A stretch of DNA of 64,000 bases from Desulfosarcinaceae bacterium (GTDB lineage: Bacteria; Desulfobacterota; Desulfobacteria; Desulfobacterales; Desulfosarcinaceae): assembly GCA_030066015.1 (NCBI GenBank), contig JASJCL010000013.1, positions 1-64,000 on the forward strand, read 5' to 3'. Each line of letters opens with the position of its first letter. The first letter of the stretch is position 1. Below are positions 32,812-45,425 of this stretch, piece by piece. A model generated the notes under the pieces. It had not been told where the DNA came from. It was given only the letters and a program-made list of their open reading frames with translations, and did no database searches. A program made the translations under genes and the position numbers.

Positions 32812-33771
32812 CTACCGGTCAATTCCTTGTGATGCTTCCTCCCCTCGGTGCCGGGCCAGTTGCCGGCGGGCCCAGGCCAGGCCAAGTTTTCCCCGCAGAT
32901 TGAACAGCCGCAGACTGAGCGGTAAAAACCGCTCCGTCAAGGGCGAGAGGTAGCACAGTCGCACCAGCTGGCGATAGAGGTCGCTATAGGTTTCCGACGC
33001 GATCATGACCGTGGCGCCGCGGCGACTGAATCCCCATGGGGCGGCGTGGCGCCGCGCTGCATCGTGGCCATCCCGGAAGGTGACGCTTGCCGTAAAAGGG
33101 CCTTGGGGAGAATAGGGGCGCGGGATGCCGGGCCGGTTGAGGGCGGATACCGCTGCCGCAGCGAGACCTTTTCGCCAAGCCACGGAATTGAAGACCGCCC
33201 GGCCGCCCTCTTTGGAGATGGGGTGGGTCGTGATGCCCGGCAGGCACTCGGCGGCCTGGTCGCAGGCCACGGGGCAGCCTGAAAAGAAGAGGGGACGGAT
33301 GCCCAGGGGTGCCAGGGCGGCGGCAAAGAGTTCCAGCTCGGCGGTGCGCTTGCTATTGATCCGCAGGTCACTAATCCGCGAGGTGAGCGTGTGGGCGAGG
33401 AATCCCCGGCTGCCGGAGGCAGCATGCATGCCCAAAAAAAGGGCCGCCTGGGCCGGACCGGGATCCCCCAACCCCGGGAAAGGTCCCGCATGGTAGCCAC
33501 TCACCAGAGTGGCGCGCGGATCGATGCCTTCGCGCATCAGATTGTAGCCGGTGCGGTGAAAGTCCTTGATCCGAATGGATTTCACGCCGCTGTCGAAAAG
33601 CGCCCTCACCACGGCATTCACATCGGCCGTCATGGCGGCACATGCCTGCGGCCAGGTGGGGCTCAGAAAAACGCCGTCAGCATACTGCCAGCAGCCGGAG
33701 CTGCCCTCGATATCGGCGATGATGAGCAGATGCGCCGGCGTGTTGGGCCCATTTCGGCCGTCCGCCGTCAC
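32812..33771 (-). CDS. M55-family peptidase (DppA-like D-aminopeptidase)
   Basis: The 319-residue protein has the M55 start LLIIADIEGSSGCWQ, whose Asp and Glu are zinc ligands in DppA. H-containing and E-containing blocks further on include RIKDFHRTGYNLMREGIDPR and ALFLGMHAASG (a His of the metal site). It lacks an export signal. A GTG start at 33771 overlaps the stop of the upstream DUF4405 gene (GTGA), so it is translationally coupled to the cytochrome operon. Family members release D-amino acids from peptides; its link to respiration is unexplained. Confidence 0.82.
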   Translation of the reverse strand: MTADGRNGPNTPAHLLIIADIEGSSGCWQYADGVFLSPTWPQACAAMTADVNAVVRALFDSGVKSIRIKDFHRTGYNLMREGIDPRATLVSGYHAGPFPGLGDPGPAQAALFLGMHAASGSRGFLAHTLTSRISDLRINSKRTAELELFAAALAPLGIRPLFFSGCPVACDQAAECLPGITTHPISKEGGRAVFNSVAWRKGLAAAAVSALNRPGIPRPYSPQGPFTASVTFRDGHDAARRHAAPWGFSRRGATVMIASETYSDLYRQLVRLCYLSPLTERFLPLSLRLFNLRGKLGLAWARRQLARHRGEEASQGIDR

Positions 33772-34598
33772 TGCAACTCGCGGATGGCATCGTAGACGTC
33801 GTGGGGGCTGAGATTGTTCGAAGCGGCGATCTCCTTCATCGTCGCCGTCAAGCTGGCCTGGATTCCTTTGATGGCCAGTTGGTCGACAATGGTGTTTCCC
33901 TCCAATCCGTAAGTCGTCAGCACTTCGGCGAGTTGGCGCTTGCCCAAACCGGGGGCTGGCGATTCGGGCATCGTTTTGGCCGACGCGGCGGCCTGGACCG
34001 GCGCTGCCTTCTGCATCTCCTCAAACAGCCGCTGCGGGGAGACGCCATTGGCGTTGGCGATCGACTTCAGAGGCACCAAGGGATCCGGTACGGTGAAGCC
34101 CGCGCTTTCCAACTGGGCCAAGCTGGCCGTATAGTCCAGTTTCATCTTTTTGGCGAAGCTCTTCAGGTTGGAGAGCTCGGCATGTCCATAGGGCGGCTCG
34201 CCATATTTGACGGCGGCAGCTTCCTTGATCCCCTCGCTGATGCCCAGAATCGTACTGAAAGGAGGGAGTTGGAAAAGGGTGCCCACGACGACCACCAGGA
34301 TGACGATGAGGGCGGCGTTGAAATTGGGCGTGAGTATTCGGAATTCTTTGGCCGTGTTTTTAAGGTAGGCCACGATGGACTTCCAATTGTAATAGGTGTG
34401 CAGACCTATGGCCAGCAGGAAGAGAATGCCCGTGTTGATGTGGATGTCGCCCCACTGCGTCTTGTCCAGGCCCCAGAGATGCCAGTCGGCCCAGTACGCC
34501 ACCCGGCCCTGGGGGACGATGTAGAGGATAATGCTGGTGAGCAGCATCACGACGAAGGCCAGCATGGCCGTTAAAGAGGTGACCTTACGAAGACTCAT
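33768..34598 (-). CDS. DUF4405 membrane protein (cytochrome b561-like)
   Basis: The 276-residue protein has three N-terminal transmembrane helices (about 9-31, 50-70, 92-112). Histidines H40, H53 and H67 lie in HLWGLDKTQWGDIHINTGILF and IGLHTYYNWK, the DUF4405/FrnD-like pattern likely to bind heme b. A 150-residue helical, non-membrane domain follows. It sits 140 bp after the b-type cytochrome gene and overlaps the M55 gene. A membrane electron-transfer partner of the octaheme cytochrome is the natural reading, by context only. Confidence 0.72.
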   Translation of the reverse strand: MSLRKVTSLTAMLAFVVMLLTSIILYIVPQGRVAYWADWHLWGLDKTQWGDIHINTGILFLLAIGLHTYYNWKSIVAYLKNTAKEFRILTPNFNAALIVILVVVVGTLFQLPPFSTILGISEGIKEAAAVKYGEPPYGHAELSNLKSFAKKMKLDYTASLAQLESAGFTVPDPLVPLKSIANANGVSPQRLFEEMQKAAPVQAAASAKTMPESPAPGLGKRQLAEVLTTYGLEGNTIVDQLAIKGIQASLTATMKEIAASNNLSPHDVYDAIRELQ

Positions 34599-34738
34599 GT
34601 GTCGCTATCCTTATATACTTCTGGTTTATCCAAACGCCGTTGACGCCTTCCCATCCCTCTGCCCATAGCGAGAAAAAGGCCGCCCGTGTATCTTACGAAC
34701 GACCTTCGCCGCAGTGACGATGTATCAGAAGCGCAGGA

Positions 34739-35401
34739 TCATGTCACGGGGGCTTGACGCTCCCTGGCCTTCTCCCACTCCTCAACGGGCTCCTGCTCAT
34801 CGACCGCCTCCCAGCCGGTGATCATCGCCTTGATATGGGCGAAGAGACTGTGGCCGGTGGTGGTCATGTAAACATGCACGATCAGAAAGGTCAGGATGGC
34901 AAAGGCCCCGGCCATGTGGACGATGGCGATCAGCTGGAGGCTGAGGTCGCTCAGCCCCCAAGCCGCCCAGGAGTTGTACCCCCAATAGAGAAAGCCGGTG
35001 ATCATCTGCATGGGCAGCAGCAGCGCTGCCAGGGAAAGATAGGTCAGTCGCTGGAGAGGGTTGTGCTTGGCCTCCTTGCGCTTGGGCACCGGGTGGCTCT
35101 CTCCGCGGAATATGCCGTAGCTATAGTAACGGATCACCTCAAACATCTTCTTGGTGGTGGGGACGTATTGCTTCCATTCACCCGTGGTGAACACCCAGAA
35201 GACAAAGAAGGCGAAGGCGATCAGCCAGGTGAGGCCCACGAAGTTGTGCACCGCTACGGCGGTCTCATATCCCAATAGGGTGATCTGGTCATGGACTTCG
35301 AAGCCAGTGATCAGCAGGATCAGGATCAACGCCATCTGAAGCCAGTGCCAGAATCGCTCATAGCGGGTATAGAGGTAGATATTTTTCAGCTTGGATGCCA
35401 T
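34739..35401 (-). CDS. b-type cytochrome membrane subunit (cytochrome b/b6-like, PhsC/HydC-type)
   Basis: The 220-residue protein has four or five transmembrane helices. Histidines suited to bind two heme b are in YERFWHWLQMALILI, VAVHNFVGLTW and VHMAGAFAILTFLIVHVYM. The layout matches the Ni-Fe hydrogenase 1 / thiosulfate reductase cytochrome b family. It starts 2 bp after the octaheme gene's stop, so it is the likely quinone-linked partner of that cytochrome. The C-terminal tail is charged and cytosolic. Confidence 0.82.
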   Translation of the reverse strand: MASKLKNIYLYTRYERFWHWLQMALILILLITGFEVHDQITLLGYETAVAVHNFVGLTWLIAFAFFVFWVFTTGEWKQYVPTTKKMFEVIRYYSYGIFRGESHPVPKRKEAKHNPLQRLTYLSLAALLLPMQMITGFLYWGYNSWAAWGLSDLSLQLIAIVHMAGAFAILTFLIVHVYMTTTGHSLFAHIKAMITGWEAVDEQEPVEEWEKARERQAPVT

Positions 35402-35403
35402 CT

Positions 35404-37038
35404 CTACGTCTCCTTTTTACCGTTGCCATTCGTGAAGATTCGCCCCAGCCCGTGCAGACAGACACCCAGGAGGGCGCCCAGCACCATGATCCAGCCAAAG
35501 GCATCGACTACGCCGGCGCCGTCGCGTCCCGGCATATAGAGGCCGCTGATGGCGGCCAAGCGGCTTCCCTCGCCGGTATGGCATTCACCGCAGGACACCA
35601 CGTTCTCCTTGGGGGCCACCATATGGGTCGTGGGGAAGACATAGGTGGTATCGACGAAGTCGAACTCTCCCGAGTAGGGTACATCCAGGGCCGCCTGCCC
35701 CTTGCGCAAGGCACGATCCCAGTCCAGGTGATTCCAGAACCCTTCCTTACCGGACAGCAGCGGTGCCAGGAGGGTTTTGTGGACCTTGTCGTAGGGCTGC
35801 CGGCCGCGGTGGACCTTGAAGGGATAGATGCGCGACATGCCGTCACCGGCATCCCCCCGAGGTGCGGAGACCGCTACGACCTGCGTGGGATCGACGACGT
35901 CTTTGACGGTGGTGCTTTTGATGGAACCGTTCCACCAGGCGTACTCGGGTTTGACATTTTTTTCCCAGCGCATCTGGCCCTTGATCGTCATATAGTCAAC
36001 GGTGCCAAGTTCGCCCTTCTCCTTGTACTTCTTGCCATCCTTCAGCTTGCCGGCTTTTGACCAGTCCCACGACATCTTGGTGGGCAGGGCGCGCGCCATC
36101 GTCGGGATGTGGCAGGTTTGACAGGCAACCTTATCGGTGTGGTCGTTGGCTTTCGAGCCTTTCTTGTGGGGGGTGGCGCTGTGGCAGGATTCGCACGTGA
36201 TCTTGGAGGTCAGATCATCTTCGATGAGGCTCTTGCGCTCCAGTGCTGCCGGTTGGGTGTAGATTCGGCCGGCCACATTGTGGAGCACGGTGGTGTGGCA
36301 GCGCGTGCAGGTGAAATTCTGCCCATCGGTCCCCATGTGAACGTCCAGGCTTTTGCTGGGCTTCGTGATGGAGGAGTCCAGGTCGCCGTGTTTGACCCCG
36401 TCCCCGCCGCCGCCATAAAAGTGGCAGGAGCCGCAATTCTGACGGGTGGGGCGTCCCACGCTTTGAACGGCGGTCTGGATGGAGGACTGCAGTTCCGCGG
36501 CGATCTCCAATTCCTCTGGGTCATCTGATTCAGCAAAGGCTTGGTAGTCTTCGAAGGACTCGCCCCAGTTGATCTCCGTTTGACCGTGGCAAACTAGGCA
36601 GTTGATGGCGCCCGATTGTCCTTCCCAGCCGGGATGACAGGAGAAGCAGCCCTTATCGGTACCATTGTTGGTGGAGATGCAGAAGTTGTTGATGCTGTCA
36701 CCCGCCTTGCCGTATCGCTTCGGTGCATCAGCGGCGCTGGCCATCCAGGACCAGTGAATGGTTTCATGGAACTGACCGGCGGCTTCGGAGTGACAGGAGA
36801 GACAGGCCGCGGTGACCTCATCACCGCTGGAGAAGGTTTTCTGCAGCTTCTCGATCTTGGTGTGATCCGTGGTGATCCACAGCGCTTTGCTCTTGGTCGC
36901 CTGTTGGGCCATGGTGCGCCCCGGTGCTTGATCGGGACTCGGCGTATCCGCACCCGATACCAGCGTGGTGCCTAAAAATGCGGCGCTCAGCACCACCAAG
37001 GCCCCCATAAGGACGGGCTTCCAATGGATTCCTAACAT
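35404..37038 (-). CDS. Octaheme c-type cytochrome, tetrathionate reductase (OTR) family
   Basis: The 544-residue exported protein has eight CxxCH motifs at residues 79, 131, 147, 202, 244, 282, 306 and 483. A signal peptide (MGALVVLSAAFLGTTLVSGA) precedes them, and a C-terminal hydrophobic helix (AFGWIMVLGALLGVCLHGLG, about 513-532) probably anchors it to the membrane, facing the periplasm. Motif spacing and the block GRPTRQNCGSCHFYGGGG fit the OTR family; the Shewanella member reduces tetrathionate, nitrite and hydroxylamine in vitro and has a lysine-ligated active heme. The true substrate here is unknown. It lies between rhodanese and b-cytochrome genes in a sigma-54-controlled operon. Confidence 0.9.
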   Translation of the reverse strand: MLGIHWKPVLMGALVVLSAAFLGTTLVSGADTPSPDQAPGRTMAQQATKSKALWITTDHTKIEKLQKTFSSGDEVTAACLSCHSEAAGQFHETIHWSWMASAADAPKRYGKAGDSINNFCISTNNGTDKGCFSCHPGWEGQSGAINCLVCHGQTEINWGESFEDYQAFAESDDPEELEIAAELQSSIQTAVQSVGRPTRQNCGSCHFYGGGGDGVKHGDLDSSITKPSKSLDVHMGTDGQNFTCTRCHTTVLHNVAGRIYTQPAALERKSLIEDDLTSKITCESCHSATPHKKGSKANDHTDKVACQTCHIPTMARALPTKMSWDWSKAGKLKDGKKYKEKGELGTVDYMTIKGQMRWEKNVKPEYAWWNGSIKSTTVKDVVDPTQVVAVSAPRGDAGDGMSRIYPFKVHRGRQPYDKVHKTLLAPLLSGKEGFWNHLDWDRALRKGQAALDVPYSGEFDFVDTTYVFPTTHMVAPKENVVSCGECHTGEGSRLAAISGLYMPGRDGAGVVDAFGWIMVLGALLGVCLHGLGRIFTNGNGKKET

Positions 37039-37150
37039 AATTCCCCCTCGTCGGTGTGCTCCCCAATTAAAGGTGCGATGGCCTTTACGCCCACTCCGCC
37101 CGCCTGCGATTTGGCGCCGCCGCCGTTGGCAGGCGGGCGGGCATGCTTGG

Positions 37151-38293
37151 CTAGACCGGCTCCTTGAGGGTGTAGGAGCCGTCGCTGTTAAATATCAGCT
37201 CCGCTTCCAGATAGTAGACGTTTTTCAGCTCGGGCCGCAGATCCTGGACCATATAGTAGGACTCGCCACTGCGGGCCCCGGTGCCGCATACGAAAACGAT
37301 GGGTTTGTTCGCCGGCAGGCTCTTGATCTTGCCCTCGAGGGTGTCCACCGGGATGTTGACGGCGGTCTTGAAGCTGCCTTTTTTAAACTCATCGGGGTCG
37401 CGCACATCGATCAGCATAACGCTCTCGGGTTTGCTGGTGACAATCTCCTTGAACTGGACGATGTCGATGCTGCCCTCTTCGCTGCCGGCCTTGAGTTGGG
37501 CGGGCGCTGCGGTTGCCTGCATTCCGGCTGTGCCGCCAGCCTTCTTCCAGGCCGGATAACCGGCGGCAAAGACCTTTACGTTGGTGTAACCCATGGCCAT
37601 CGCCTTGGCGGCCGACTTGTGGCTAAGCTTGCAGTGCAGGCCGCCGCAATAGAAGACCAGGGGTTTGCTTTTATCTGCAGGCAACTGGTCCTTCTGCTTG
37701 TCGAAATAGGTGTCGGGAATGCTGATGGCGCCGGGGATGTGACCCTTGTCGTATTTGGCGCGCTTGGGGCGGGAATCCACCAGGGCCAGCTCCTTTTGGC
37801 CAGTCACCTGCTTTTTCACCCAATCCACGTCCACTGCCGCATAGTTGCCCGGCATCTTCATCCACTTGGGAAAGCCTTCGGCGAAGACCTTCACATTGGT
37901 GTATCCTAAGGCCTCGGCTTTGGCGGCCGACTTGTGGCTGAGCTTGCAGTGCAGGCCGCCGCAGTAGAAGATCAGCAGGGCGTTCTTGTCTTCGGGCAGC
38001 TGATCTTTCTGCTTGTCGAAATAAGTGTCGGGGATGCTGATGGCGCCGGGGATGTGACCCTTGTCGTATTTGGCGCGCTTGGGGCGGGAGTCGATCAGGA
38101 CCACATCGTTGGCCATGGGAACGGTGACGTGGGCTTTGACGAATTCGACATCTACGATATCGTGAAAGCGCCACTCCTCTTCGGCCTTGGCCACGGTCGG
38201 CGCCGCCGCTTGCTTGGATCCGGCACAACCGGCGAAGAGGGCCATGACCAGCGCTGCCAGGGTGATAAGGGTAAAGATACGGGTTCGCGTCAT
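37151..38293 (-). CDS. Triple-rhodanese lipoprotein
   Basis: The 380-residue protein has a lipoprotein signal with lipobox LFAGC (C23). It carries three rhodanese-like domains. Domains 1 and 2 (about 45-145 and 150-250) are near-identical copies 105 residues apart, each with the loop YCGGLHCKLSHK (catalytic-position C111 and C216, plus a second Cys five residues on). Domain 3 (about 275-370) has C336 in the CGTGARSG loop. Rhodaneses carry sulfane sulfur as a persulfide. It probably works in the periplasm, delivering or handling sulfur for the octaheme cytochrome encoded 112 bp downstream. Confidence 0.87.
   Translation of the reverse strand: MTRTRIFTLITLAALVMALFAGCAGSKQAAAPTVAKAEEEWRFHDIVDVEFVKAHVTVPMANDVVLIDSRPKRAKYDKGHIPGAISIPDTYFDKQKDQLPEDKNALLIFYCGGLHCKLSHKSAAKAEALGYTNVKVFAEGFPKWMKMPGNYAAVDVDWVKKQVTGQKELALVDSRPKRAKYDKGHIPGAISIPDTYFDKQKDQLPADKSKPLVFYCGGLHCKLSHKSAAKAMAMGYTNVKVFAAGYPAWKKAGGTAGMQATAAPAQLKAGSEEGSIDIVQFKEIVTSKPESVMLIDVRDPDEFKKGSFKTAVNIPVDTLEGKIKSLPANKPIVFVCGTGARSGESYYMVQDLRPELKNVYYLEAELIFNSDGSYTLKEPV
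37547..38098 (-). repeat. Tandem duplication of a rhodanese domain (315-bp unit)
   Basis: Two near-identical DNA copies, offset by 315 bp, encode rhodanese domains 1 and 2 of the lipoprotein gene at 37151. Long runs such as the DSRPKRAKYDKGHIPGAIS and CGGLHCKLSHKSAAKA coding stretches are conserved even at DNA level, which points to a recent duplication or gene conversion. Confidence 0.85.
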
Positions 38294-38345
38294 CTCCTAC
38301 CTCCTTTTAGAGTTGTTCTTCCGAGCGAAATAATCGGTGTTAAGC

Positions 38346-38690
38346 CTATTTACACTTGGCCGGCGTGGGTGAATCAGACGCGTGAGCGTGCAGGTAGCTG
38401 TAGATATCCAACAGCTCCTTATCGGAGAGTTGTGACCACTCTTCCTGACAACCGAACTCAGCGAATTCCTTGTTCTCGAATACCGATGTCCACTGTGCTT
38501 GGGTTTTGGCATCGGGATTAAGGGTCGGCTTGGCGATATCGACCTCACCCCGCGCATTGCAGGCCTTGTATACTTTGCGATAGGTGTATTTGCCTTTGCG
38601 CTTGTTGCCGTCTTCGCCGGCGACGGCAACGCCACTGAGACTAAGTGTGACCAAGAGGGTGACCGCTATCAGGGTAATTCTTTTCAGCAT
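38346..38690 (-). CDS. Small periplasmic cytochrome-c-like protein lacking a heme-binding motif
   Basis: The 114-residue protein has a signal peptide (ITLIAVTLLVTLSLSGVAVAG). The rest resembles small class I cytochromes of sulfate reducers (YRKVYKAC, then QAQWTSVF, then WSQLSDKELLDIYSYLHAHASDSPTPAKC), but at the heme site the sequence is KACNARG, not CxxCH. Three cysteines remain. The ATG at 38690 is chosen because AAGGAG lies 10 nt upstream; an ATG at 38714 has no ribosome site. It is the first gene after the sigma-54 promoter at 38763. It may have become a sulfur-binding or structural subunit. Confidence 0.65.
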   Translation of the reverse strand: MLKRITLIAVTLLVTLSLSGVAVAGEDGNKRKGKYTYRKVYKACNARGEVDIAKPTLNPDAKTQAQWTSVFENKEFAEFGCQEEWSQLSDKELLDIYSYLHAHASDSPTPAKCK

Positions 38691-38762: not shown

Positions 38763-38779
38763 AGCAAGCTGTGTGCCAA
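38763..38779 (-). promoter_or_regulatory. Sigma-54 (-24/-12) promoter of the OTR/rhodanese operon
   Basis: On the minus strand the sequence is TTGGCAC-ACAGC-TTGCT, a full match to the RpoN consensus TTGGCACRNNNNTTGCW. It directs transcription leftward, with a start expected near 38752 and a leader of about 60 nt before the gene at 38690. Confidence 0.88.
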
Positions 38780-38896: not shown

Positions 38897-39253
38897 TCAG
38901 AAGATTATCACCCGATGGCTGTTTTTAATGAGATCCACTTCGTAGCCTGGCGCCACCAGGATAGCTGCTGTTTCGTCCGCCAGGATTTCCGCCGCAGCGG
39001 TCGTATCGCTGTCGTGCAGGTTGCGATAGCTCTCCAGGCAGATGGTGACACGCGCCCAGCGTCTCAAATGTGGCAGCTGAACCCGTTCCAATAGCTGAAC
39101 GCCTTGGTGGGTGAAATGGATGCAGACCTGTTTACCTTGTTGGGCTGCCGCCTGGGCCAATGGCAGGCAATAGGCGGCATGGCGGTCGGATTCCACGAGG
39201 ATGGCCAGATCCGTGGGGGAGCTGGCGATGCAGGTCTGATCAACCTTGGGCAT
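38897..39253 (-). CDS. DsrE-like small protein
   Basis: The 118-residue cytosolic protein has the DsrE/F-like pattern: an N-terminal strand (LAILVESDRHAAYCLPLAQAAAQQGKQVCIHFTHQGVQLLE), then a beta-alpha repeat ending ILVAPGYEVDLIKNSHRVIIF. DsrE-family proteins carry sulfur in relay systems. Cysteines C8, C29, C44 and C72 are present; which one, if any, is catalytic is unclear. It starts 4 bp after the upstream DsrH-like gene and shares its sigma-54 promoter. Confidence 0.6.
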   Translation of the reverse strand: MPKVDQTCIASSPTDLAILVESDRHAAYCLPLAQAAAQQGKQVCIHFTHQGVQLLERVQLPHLRRWARVTICLESYRNLHDSDTTAAAEILADETAAILVAPGYEVDLIKNSHRVIIF

Positions 39254-39257
39254 AAGG

Positions 39258-39446
39258 TCACCAGCAGATCACGCGGTCATGATTGAAAATGTCCCTGACC
39301 AATCGCTGCCAGTCCACTGGACAGGGGTTGATGCCGTCGGGATAGAGGGCTACTACAGTGGCGGATCCGTCCGCCGATAGGCGCTGGATCAGTGCCGCCG
39401 TGATCTCATCGGGCTCATCCCGCAGAATGTGGAGGGTGGTTTTCAT
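39258..39446 (-). CDS. Very small DsrH/TusB-like protein
   Basis: The product is 62 residues starting at the ATG at 39446 (GGAG about 8 nt upstream), chosen over an unsupported longer frame that would cover the promoter. TTLHILRDEPDEITAALIQRL, then ATVVALYPDG, then VDWQRLVRDIFNHDRVICW resembles the TusB/DsrH fold, but it is about two-thirds of normal length. A C-terminal-region Cys in GINPCPVDW could carry sulfur. It is first in the two-gene operon under the sigma-54 promoter at 39518. Confidence 0.5.
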   Translation of the reverse strand: MKTTLHILRDEPDEITAALIQRLSADGSATVVALYPDGINPCPVDWQRLVRDIFNHDRVICW

Positions 39447-39517: not shown

Positions 39518-39534
39518 AGCAACCTGTGTGCCAT
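39518..39534 (-). promoter_or_regulatory. Sigma-54 (-24/-12) promoter of the DsrH/DsrE-like operon
   Basis: On the minus strand the sequence is ATGGCAC-ACAGG-TTGCT, matching the RpoN consensus and differing at only two bases from the promoter at 38763. The leader to the start at 39446 is about 60 nt. Confidence 0.88.
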
Positions 39535-39617: not shown

Positions 39618-39648
39618 TGTTAACAAGTGTTAAGGGTGAGTGTTAACC
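39618..39648. promoter_or_regulatory. Upstream activator array: three TGTTAA boxes
   Basis: TGTTAA boxes start at 39618, 39628 and 39641 (spacing 10 and 13). Ungapped alignment with the reverse complement of the array at 38847 gives 23 identities over 35 positions, concentrated in the boxes. It lies about 112-142 bp upstream of the predicted start of the DsrH/DsrE operon and 28 bp before the regulator gene at 39676, so it may also control that gene. Confidence 0.75.
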
Positions 39649-39675
39649 AATAGGCCTTGCTATCGGTGGGTTCGC

Positions 39676-41058
39676 ATGGATCTCTCCCCATATTGGAAAA
39701 CCATCGTCGATACCTTACAGGACGGTGTAATGGTCGTGGACCCTTCGGGCCGCGTGCTGGCGGTGAACCCAGCCGCAGAGCGCCTCACGGGATACAGCGA
39801 AGCGGAACTTGTGGGCAAGTCCTGCCGTATCCTGGACTGCACCGGTTGCCACATTATCGGGGAAGGGCCCGGCGAGCGCTGGTGCGGCCTTTACGCCAAA
39901 GGTGAGGTGCGCGCCAAGAAGTGCTTCATCACCAACAAGGCCCACAATCCGGTCAATGTCATTAAAAATGCCCGTGTGCTGCGGGATGATAATGGCGAGA
40001 TCATCGGCGCGGTGGAAACCTTGACGGACATGTCGGAAATTGTGCGCCAACAGCAGGAGATCAATGCGTTAAAACGCACCCTGAATCTGGATGAGGATTT
40101 CCAGGGGATTGTGGGGCAGGCGCCCGCCATGCAGCGGCTCTTCGAATTGATCGACAACGTGGCCCAGACTTTGGCACCGGTGATGATCCGCGGCGAGAGC
40201 GGGACGGGTAAGGAGCTTGTGGCCCGAGCGATCCATGAGCGCAGTCGTCGCCGCAAGCAGCCCTTTATCAAGGTCAATTGTGCCGCCCTCAATGAAAACC
40301 TTCTCGAAAGCGAATTGTTCGGCCATGCCAAGGGTGCCTATACCGGGGCGGATCGGGCCCGGATGGGACGCTTTCAAGCGGCCCACGGCGGCACCATTTT
40401 TCTGGATGAGATCGGCGATATCCCGCCGCAGACTCAGGTAAAATTGTTGCGGGTGCTGGAGGAGAAAGAGATCGAACGGGTGGGCGAGAATCGCTCCATA
40501 TCCGTCGATGTGCGGGTCATCACGGCCACCAACCGCGACCTGGAAAGTTTGATTGCCCAAGGGCGGTTTCGAGAGGATCTCTATTTTCGCATCAATGTGT
40601 TTCCGCTGGGCGTGCCCGCTCTTCGGGAACGCCGCGAAGATGTCCCCATCATTGTTCAGCACTTCTTGCGGCTGAACAACTCAAAAACGGGCAAGCGCAT
40701 TCTCGGCTTGACGCCCGAGGCCATGGAAAGGATGTCCGCCTACGACTGGCCGGGCAACGTGCGTGAACTTCGCAACGCCATCGAATATGCTTTCGTTCTA
40801 TGCCATAGCGGCGCCATCAGCAGTCAGCACCTGCCGCCCAAAGTGGTTTACGACAACCAGTGCGCCCCTGTGCCCCTTGCCGTATCGGATCCACCACCAG
40901 CGCAGGCGACGGTGGATCAGAAGCAGGCCTTGCTGGCAGCGTTACGAAAAGCGGGCGGCAATCAGAGCGCGGCGGCCCGGATGCTGGGCGTGAGCCGTGT
41001 GACGGTGTGGAAGCGGATGAAGAAGTGGGGCATCGATCCGAAGCAGGGATATGGTTGA
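39676..41058 (+). CDS. PAS sigma-54-dependent transcriptional activator
   Basis: The 460-residue NtrC-type enhancer-binding protein has three parts. The N-terminal PAS domain (about 5-120) carries cysteines C50, C55, C58, C70 and C83. The AAA+ domain (about 140-380) has Walker A GESGTGKEL, the sigma-54-contacting GAYTGA loop and Walker B FLDEIGD. A Fis-type HTH (QSAAARMLGVSRVTVWKRM) ends the protein. The ATG at 39676 has GGTGGG upstream and begins at the PAS domain. It is divergent from the DsrH/DsrE operon, and two TGTTAA arrays plus two sigma-54 promoters nearby suggest it is the local activator. The Cys cluster may sense redox or sulfane sulfur. Confidence 0.88.
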   Translation: MDLSPYWKTIVDTLQDGVMVVDPSGRVLAVNPAAERLTGYSEAELVGKSCRILDCTGCHIIGEGPGERWCGLYAKGEVRAKKCFITNKAHNPVNVIKNARVLRDDNGEIIGAVETLTDMSEIVRQQQEINALKRTLNLDEDFQGIVGQAPAMQRLFELIDNVAQTLAPVMIRGESGTGKELVARAIHERSRRRKQPFIKVNCAALNENLLESELFGHAKGAYTGADRARMGRFQAAHGGTIFLDEIGDIPPQTQVKLLRVLEEKEIERVGENRSISVDVRVITATNRDLESLIAQGRFREDLYFRINVFPLGVPALRERREDVPIIVQHFLRLNNSKTGKRILGLTPEAMERMSAYDWPGNVRELRNAIEYAFVLCHSGAISSQHLPPKVVYDNQCAPVPLAVSDPPPAQATVDQKQALLAALRKAGGNQSAAARMLGVSRVTVWKRMKKWGIDPKQGYG

Positions 41059-44945: not shown

Positions 44946-45425
44946 ATGCACCGGATAACCGATACGATCACCTTCGCGCGCTCGGCAGTGGTCCGCAGTG
45001 CGCTCCTCGCCGTGATGCTGGTCAGTTTCGGGATCAATCCGCCGGCCACCTTGGCGGCCGAAGAGAGCGTTCACCTGAATCCGGATGCCGCCATGCGTCA
45101 GATTGCGGCCCAGCTGGGTGATCCCAACTTCGTGCTGTTGGATGTCCGAACCCCCGGAGAGTTCGCCAAGGGCCATATCCAGGGGGCCAAGCTGCTCGAC
45201 TTCTACCACCGCGCTTTTCTCAGCCGCCTCAAAACCCTCGATCGCGGCAAGACCTATCTGCTCTATTGCCGCACAGGGAACCGCAGCGGGCGCACCCTCG
45301 ACACCATGGCCAAGCTGGGATTTACAGAGGTGGCCCATCTGGCCGGGGGAATCGTTGCCTGGCAAGGCAAGGGCTATTCGTTGATCAAGTCGACGGTGGT
45401 CGATCCCGATCTGCTGGCGCCCTGA
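44946..45425 (+). CDS. Exported rhodanese-like sulfurtransferase
   Basis: The 159-residue protein has a signal peptide (VVRSALLAVMLVSFGINPPATLA) and one rhodanese domain with LLDVRTPGEFAKGHIQGA and the active-site loop YCRTGNRSG, with its cysteine intact. It should act in the periplasm. Length fits a single-domain family member. GGAGG lies 9 nt before the ATG. It is downstream of metYXW, though the palindrome cluster separates them, so co-transcription is unsure. Confidence 0.85.
   Translation: MHRITDTITFARSAVVRSALLAVMLVSFGINPPATLAAEESVHLNPDAAMRQIAAQLGDPNFVLLDVRTPGEFAKGHIQGAKLLDFYHRAFLSRLKTLDRGKTYLLYCRTGNRSGRTLDTMAKLGFTEVAHLAGGIVAWQGKGYSLIKSTVVDPDLLAP

Follow-up and report, generated by a model that had tools for sequence, protein, structure and literature searches.

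The DNA examined here, which we call the window, is a stretch of 64,000 nucleotides from a Desulfosarcinaceae bacterium (contig JASJCL010000013.1, contig 150 of the 155 that make up this 5.7 Mb genome). Within it lies a minus-strand gene cluster built around an octaheme cytochrome c of the OTR (octaheme tetrathionate reductase) family, whose members reduce tetrathionate, nitrite and hydroxylamine in vitro, and it is the make-up, conservation and possible function of this cluster that concern us. An initial annotation had joined six genes here in one operon, and all six are indeed present on the minus strand, with family matches in Pfam and NCBIfam scans. It had overlooked two small genes upstream (one of them DsrE-like), a divergent sigma-54 activator and two sigma-54 sites. 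From 39446 downwards the minus-strand genes follow one another in the order given below, from the 62-amino-acid protein to the M55 peptidase, together with the regulatory features.

39640-41058, plus strand (divergent): sigma-54 activator (NifA/NtrC-like) with a PAS domain, a cysteine-rich stretch and a Fis helix-turn-helix (PF00158, 249.7 bits)
39519-39533, minus strand: sigma-54 -24/-12 motif TGGCACACAGGTTGC, exact match, ahead of the gene for the 62-amino-acid protein
39258-39446, minus strand: 62-amino-acid protein with a C-terminal CW, TusB/DsrH-like by eye only
38897-39253, minus strand: DsrE-like protein with an invariant Cys72 (Pfam DsrE 12.3 bits, below the cut-off of 22.7)
38764-38778, minus strand: sigma-54 motif TGGCACACAGCTTGC, exact match, ahead of the small-protein gene
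38346-38690, minus strand: exported class I cytochrome c-like protein without heme motif, with Cys52, Cys89 and Cys121 kept ("the small protein")
37151-38293, minus strand: lipoprotein with three rhodanese domains (PF00581 in three stretches, 170 bits)
35404-37038, minus strand: OTR-family octaheme cytochrome c with a C-terminal membrane anchor (TIGR04315, 514.8 bits against a cut-off of 375)
34739-35401, minus strand: cytochrome b561-type membrane partner (PF01292, 99.4 bits)
33768-34598, minus strand: DUF4405 membrane protein, non-core (PF14358, 70.1 bits)
32812-33771, minus strand: M55 D-aminopeptidase, non-core (PF04951, 136.1 bits)

The gene cluster and its conservation

The OTR protein carries eight CXXCH motifs within 35404-37038 and a hydrophobic stretch at about residues 515-533, in agreement with the anchored octaheme cytochrome of the initial annotation; it also scores 222 bits against PF11783. 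Over residues 65-494 it aligns with chain A of the Shewanella OTR structure 1SP3 (331 bits), such that N117, C120, D213 and K216 fall on N61, C64, D150 and K153. All four of these, which we take to be active-site residues of 1SP3, are kept. The b561 protein finds its best NCBIfam relative in a thiosulfate reductase cytochrome b subunit (106.3 bits, below the cut-off of 204) and is likely a menaquinol dehydrogenase. No molybdopterin catalytic subunit was found among the operon genes scanned, and a PhsA-like query gave no match in the window at E<=1e-20. Elsewhere in the same genome (contig 135, 8300-9553; L103) there is a distant second OTR-like cytochrome of 713 amino acids with 10 CXXCH motifs, which at 317 bits falls below the TIGR04315 cut-off and adjoins frames with 15 and 5 CXXCH motifs. 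Across the phylum, 69 of 395 genomes hold a protein above that cut-off.

A profile of six OTRs retrieved 265 relatives in one scan, and the best 80 of these 265, together with the window, gave the 81 loci compared here. They are skewed to close kin, some are near-duplicates of one another (L124/L125), and the majority have titles from a single order. The titles are mostly Desulfobacterales or Deltaproteobacteria and include Desulfosarcina widdelii, D. alkanivorans, Desulfospira joergensenii and Desulfocicer vacuolatum; individual bins are titled otherwise (Lentisphaeria for L125, whose OTR is nearly identical to that of L124, and Thiocapsa for L182). Some loci of a first set apparently recur among the 81 (L128 = L086, L171 = L093, L176 = L094 and L192 = L091), L119 likewise seems to equal L208 of the further loci described below, and L086, L090, L091, L093 and L094 of that set were left out of the tree. 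Upstream genes were counted in the 54 loci with at least 5 kb of upstream sequence, b561 in the 71 loci with at least 1.2 kb downstream, and DUF4405 and M55 in 51 loci.

In 49 of the 54 loci the activator precedes the operon and is transcribed from the other strand; in none is it on the same strand. Upstream of OTR and on its strand we found the small cytochrome-like protein in 48 loci, the rhodanese in 33, a DUF3373 porin in 22 (412 bits in L122), the gene related to that for the 62-amino-acid protein in 19 and the DsrE-like gene in 16, while b561 follows OTR in 68/71. The complete set of eight genes, from activator through b561, is found in L115, L118 and L168, and Desulfosarcina widdelii and D. 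alkanivorans have the whole module together with the porin. The grouping is far beyond chance, since it recurs in diverged genomes. Porin and rhodanese appeared at first sight to be alternatives (porin only in 16 loci, rhodanese only in 27, both in 6 and neither in 5), an idea we rejected because merely two independent pairs on supported branches underlie it.

DUF4405 and M55, counted as operon members by the initial annotation, did not keep that place. Downstream and on the same strand, DUF4405 is found in 3/51 loci (the window, L142 and, as a 35-bit match, L131) and M55 in 2/51 (the window and L168), which leaves two loci with strong matches for each, window included. Both are passengers, outside the conserved unit. 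Other genes follow b561 elsewhere: a protein with FmdE and molybdopterin-binding domains in L167 (9214-10848; Pfam, that locus only), with 544-amino-acid frames at the same place in L169, L173 and L187, and cytochrome bd oxidase subunit-like genes in L154 (12522-14893; by eye, that locus only), with frames of like length in L166 and L174, these being Desulfobacula-like loci.

By its own criterion, the initial annotation would have been refuted by a lack of co-occurrence beyond this strain. It was not refuted by a survey that covered 291 genomes of the order, with thresholds of E<=1e-150 for the window-type OTR and E<=1e-60 for the triple rhodanese. OTR was present in 117 genomes and the triple rhodanese in 60; 52 held both, 8 the rhodanese alone, 65 OTR alone and 166 neither (Fisher p 9.5e-17). 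Like the other survey statistics, this value is uncorrected for kinship, and draft genomes may hide genes. In 47 of the 60 rhodanese genomes the rhodanese lies directly upstream of OTR and on the same strand. Fifteen further loci, mostly exceptions to this pattern, were examined after the survey: 8 contain OTR-like cytochromes, and of the 7 without, some run into contig edges.

The two exact sigma-54 sites (TGGCACN5TTGC) lie 73 bases ahead of the 62-amino-acid protein gene and 74 ahead of the small-protein gene, out of three in the whole window. Matches with one mismatch are not unusually frequent across the window (10 versus 6.8 in shuffles), and support for sigma-54 promoters therefore comes from the relatives. 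There, a forward motif with at most one mismatch lies between activator and OTR in 52 of the 58 loci with the regulator, window included. In all, these loci gave 57 forward matches and 2 reverse ones; letter shuffles (which preserve letters, not dinucleotides) gave 1.7, and control stretches taken downstream, comparable in total length, gave 9. A terminator scan found sites no more numerous than in shuffles.

Sulfur proteins, their cysteines and probable selenocysteine in relatives

The small protein probably starts at ATG 38690, which has a good ribosome site by eye, and stops at 38346; its residue numbers count from ATG 38714. As the initial annotation had it, there is no CXXCH in this product, and the motif is likewise lost in 56 of 65 loci, window included, and kept in nine. 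Cys52, Cys89 and Cys121 are kept in all 65. In the 56 heme-less proteins the first heme cysteine is gone, the second (Cys52) is always kept and the histidine survives in only 16. PF13442 matches six heme-bearing relatives at 30-43 bits (four of the nine and two from other loci). The structure model is helical (predicted local distance difference test score 83.5); a fold search returned no match at E<=0.001, and the first five of its 24 weak matches were cytochromes c or a cytochrome complex. Judged from its sequence relatives, the protein is class I cytochrome c-like and has lost its heme motif. That one heme-anchoring cysteine is kept without a heme suggests a new thiol role, though it could be structural. 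Among loci with more than 3.5 kb upstream, all 6 with a heme-bearing small protein lack the rhodanese, and 35 of the 47 with a heme-less one have it. We did not adopt the rule that a heme-bearing small protein never accompanies the rhodanese: a single heme-state change on the tree makes this one event, not a statistic, and two loci of the PhsA type described below (L080 and L084) have both.

Relatives of the DsrE-like protein score above the Pfam cut-off in L115 (28.3 bits) and L187 (26.9), and below it in L127 (15.9). Its Cys72 is invariant in 17 aligned sequences and, by hhalign, falls on the cysteine of the TusD ICVAA stretch, at probabilities of 0.8% for TusD and 1.9% for TusC. In 14 aligned copies of the 62-amino-acid protein, an L-H near the start and the C-terminal Cys-Trp are invariant. 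Its identification as TusB/DsrH was not supported: hhalign gave a probability of 0.45% to E. coli TusB, and a fold search of the PDB returned nothing at E<=0.001.

The rhodanese protein has a signal peptide with a lipobox-like AGC end (by eye); the triple-rhodanese lipoprotein of the initial annotation stands. Its loops read C111GGLHC116, C216GGLHC221 and C336GTGARSG. Domains 1 and 2 (37541-37795 and 37856-38110) form a recent-looking duplication of 255 bases at 83% identity. A further rhodanese-like gene, with a YCRTGNRSG loop by eye, lies in the window at 44946-45425 (plus strand), 4 kb beyond the regulator and with no operon link seen.

In sister operons the same rhodanese also accompanies a molybdoenzyme that resembles PhsA (560 bits on the PhsA model, whose cut-off is 694). 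The enzyme scores above 300 bits in 11 loci, and the rhodanese is present in all of them but L104. In L084 (6293-13818), a second operon type, the order is an iron-sulfur protein of the twin-arginine translocation type, an NrfD-c7-OTR fusion of 1090 amino acids with 12 hemes, a monoheme cytochrome c, the PhsA-like molybdoenzyme and the rhodanese. Such an NrfD-multiheme-OTR fusion was seen, where the stretch permitted, in L080, L081, L084, L104, L198 and L206; in L194, L195, L196, L199 and L204, enzyme and rhodanese occur with the fusion not shown. TGA codons occur in several loci of this type, and L194, L195, L196, L198 and L206 hold an OTR of a second type (301-368 bits). The PhsA-type operon is perhaps a two-headed sulfur reductase.

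In-frame TGA codons are found in both OTR and rhodanese genes of relatives. OTR genes with one such codon surfaced in the genome search, and of the 80 OTRs in the phylum set 28 have it in the motif N[NS][FY]U, at the position of Cys64 of 1SP3, where the window reads NNFC; the cysteine and selenocysteine states are separated by four changes on the tree. Of the 60 genomes with the rhodanese, 22 have a TGA in frame within its gene. Among 52 matches it replaces Cys116 in eight, and in four of these eight also Cys221; these are the second cysteines of the CGGxxC loops, in domain 1 and domain 2 respectively. The same motif has the TGA in 9 of the 15 further loci. Hairpin folding over the 48 bases from the TGA is stronger than over those from Cys codons, both in OTR (z -1.31, n=28, versus 0.01, n=83; p 1e-8) and in the rhodanese (z -2.62, n=11, versus -0.35, n=81; p 1e-5), as a selenocysteine insertion sequence (SECIS) hairpin would. 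Sites for this test were located by motif in six frames, and a few may be chance. Selenocysteine thus probably replaces the OTR Cys64-equivalent and the rhodanese loop cysteines in relatives. Since a TGA with a SECIS-like hairpin takes their place there, the Cys64-equivalent and the second cysteines of CGGxxC are probably redox-active. L208 (6612-11790; apparently the same contig as L119) has a Cys-OTR with b561 and a TGA-OTR with b561 in tandem, that is, thiol and probable selenol paralogues in one genome.

Two other TGA codons were set aside, namely the third in the L194 rhodanese, where relatives have Trp and the codon is perhaps a sequence error, and one at 348 in L165, which terminates a broken frame. 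The presence of selB proved uninformative: 65 of 68 genomes score above its cut-off, as do 26 of the 28 with a TGA-OTR. According to a table in a 2026 review, the selenoprotein form of TIGR04315 is 'GenBank annotated' (PMC13188914), so a selenocysteine OTR as such is already known; selenocysteine at Cys64 specifically, and a selenocysteine triple rhodanese beside OTR, were not found in those parts of the open PMC literature that were available.

Proposed function and competing explanations

Gene content, conservation, promoter motifs, active-site letters and, in relatives, TGA codons with hairpins at exact cysteines can all be read directly from the DNA; from the protein families concerned we infer an electron path, substrate, direction, sulfur transfer and complex formation. 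With moderate confidence, we favour the reading that the cluster is an anaerobic respiratory operon of Desulfobacterales under sigma-54 control, encoding a membrane-bound enzyme that takes electrons from menaquinol and reduces sulfane-sulfur compounds (polysulfide, thiosulfate or tetrathionate). Sulfur handling fits the rhodanese, the DsrE-like gene and the sister operons with PhsA-like enzymes; a membrane module fed by quinol fits the b561 partner and the OTR anchor. In the proposal of the initial annotation, a membrane complex passes quinone electrons to a sulfur compound presented by the lipoprotein. The quinone link and the sulfur handling agree with these features, the complex and the presentation are putative, and the DUF4405 and M55 components drop out.

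In such a system b561 would oxidise menaquinol, and electrons would pass through the heme chain of the membrane-anchored periplasmic OTR to a Lys-ligated heme. There an S-S compound would be reduced, with the Cys64-equivalent (selenocysteine in relatives) acting as the sulfur-attacking nucleophile. The triple-rhodanese lipoprotein may hold sulfane sulfur on its CGGxxC/U loops and give it to, or take it from, OTR. Where present, the DUF3373 porin could allow substrate or product through the outer membrane, and the DsrE-like proteins might handle sulfur in the cytoplasm. A more detailed relay is rather doubtful: sulfane sulfur would be bound on Cys111 and Cys216, resolved by Cys/Sec116 and 221 (Sec, selenocysteine), passed via the retained heme-anchoring cysteine of the heme-less cytochrome, as a sulfur carrier, and reduced at the Cys/Sec64 position beside the catalytic heme. 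If true, it would mean molybdenum-free sulfur respiration with covalent delivery of sulfur to a multiheme cytochrome.

Several findings weigh against this reductase. In 21 of 54 loci there is no rhodanese, and its distribution takes four changes on the tree; OTR therefore does not need it. Conversely, the rhodanese and the small protein occur in L197 and L202, where more than 6 kb of downstream sequence contains no OTR. The DsrE-like gene and that for the 62-amino-acid protein were found in just 16 and 19 of 54 loci, respectively, and the window's own OTR and rhodanese contain no in-frame TGA, having Cys codons. OTR also reduces nitrite and hydroxylamine in vitro (PMC4484225), and NapA is found in 14 of the 52 genomes with OTR and rhodanese versus 15 of 239 others (p 6.5e-5, kinship uncorrected), with a weak enrichment in OTR genomes at large (17/117 versus 12/174, p 0.045).

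These last points feed the main rival, in which the enzyme is a nitrite/hydroxylamine (or nitric oxide) reductase serving ammonification or nitrite protection of sulfate reducers, and the sulfur proteins merely repair or protect. The in vitro activities are those of the Shewanella OTR, the Thermosulfurimonas dismutans OTR has been proposed as a nitrite reductase (PMC5276818), and the NapA enrichment points the same way. NrfA is commoner in OTR genomes (27/117 versus 22/174, p 0.025, kinship uncorrected), and among these it is rarer with the rhodanese (6/52) than without (21/65), which would fit OTR replacing NrfA. However, 33 of the 52 OTR and rhodanese genomes, and the window genome, lack both NapA and NrfA at the thresholds used, and the rhodanese and PhsA-like partners are sulfur proteins. 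We regard this explanation as unlikely.

Alternatively, the cluster might work in the oxidising direction: sulfane sulfur or thiosulfate would be oxidised and the electrons would feed the quinone pool, the situation in sulfate reducers that disproportionate sulfur compounds or oxidise sulfide. DsrE-like neighbours would suit this, and the DsrEFH type II sulfurtransferase has been proposed to confer sulfur oxidation on sulfate reducers (PMC13293266). An anchored OTR with b561 is nevertheless the layout of a quinol-fed terminal reductase, and the sister setting has a PhsA-like reductase; we consider the oxidising direction unlikely. Reduction of selenite, tellurite or another metalloid oxyanion is very unlikely: Geobacter Ext (extHIJKLMNOPQS) likewise joins a rhodanese-like protein, a porin, a proposed selenocysteine cytochrome and a b-type cytochrome (PMC5877670), but Ext has other cytochromes and a Rieske protein, the window reaches 29.3 bits on the ExtH rhodanese model (cut-off 200), and selenocysteine in an enzyme does not specify its substrate.

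Related systems and significance

The favoured sulfane-sulfur reductase has described counterparts for several of its parts. Compared with Shewanella OTR (SO4144; PDB 1SP3), with which it shares eight CXXCH motifs and the positions N61/C64/D150/K153, the window OTR differs in its C-terminal membrane anchor, its dedicated b561 and its sulfur-operon setting, as well as in the probable selenocysteine at C64 in some relatives. In T. dismutans, a periplasmic OTR is tied to the membrane by an adjoining cytochrome b (TDIS_1882/1883), but the available passages on it (PMC4911364) name neither a rhodanese nor a degenerate cytochrome, and likewise no DsrE-like gene, no porin and no sigma-54 activator. 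The Psr operon of Desulfurivibrio dismutans includes a secreted triple-rhodanese lipoprotein, RS06465, in a sulfur reductase operon; there, however, the catalyst is the polysulfide reductase Psr, and RS06465 was likened to our protein by description, not sequence (PMC12142623). In Dethiobacter, rhodanese genes have been described in clusters with SirA/OTR-like cytochromes, one of which reportedly rises on thiosulfate (PMC10376724).

DsrEFH type II, from cable bacteria and sulfate reducers, likewise has a DsrE-like subunit with one conserved cysteine (PMC13293266), whereas the window has one DsrE-like and one tiny protein. The UxxxxU spacing of TsoB, a rhodanese/DsbD-fusion selenoprotein, equals that of CGGxxC/U here (PMC13188914), but the window protein has three rhodanese domains and scores 121.6 bits on the TsoB model (NF045694; cut-off 805). 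TsoA/TsoB was accordingly rejected as a name for the OTR-rhodanese pair; TsoA, moreover, is listed as a LULAXC protein, not OTR (PMC13188914).

The initial annotation had called the module possibly undescribed. This is only partly right: the whole was not found in the available parts of the open PMC literature (a body that leaves out most subscription papers), but OTR with cytochrome b (PMC4911364) and a triple rhodanese with Psr (PMC12142623) have been published. The components are known, and their assembly is a new variant.

The cellular role of OTR enzymes is still termed unclear (PMC10949509). An operon that ties OTR to a sulfane-sulfur lipoprotein, and that is conserved among sulfate reducers in culture (Desulfosarcina widdelii, D. 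alkanivorans, Desulfospira, Desulfocicer), provides a defined system for study. Residues worth mutating are marked by the probable selenocysteine, which in different relatives takes the place of the active-site cysteine of OTR and of the loop cysteines of the rhodanese. Should the sulfur reading be right, many sulfate reducers (OTR being present in 117 of the 291 genomes of this order) would possess a way of reducing sulfur intermediates that needs no molybdenum and has been overlooked.

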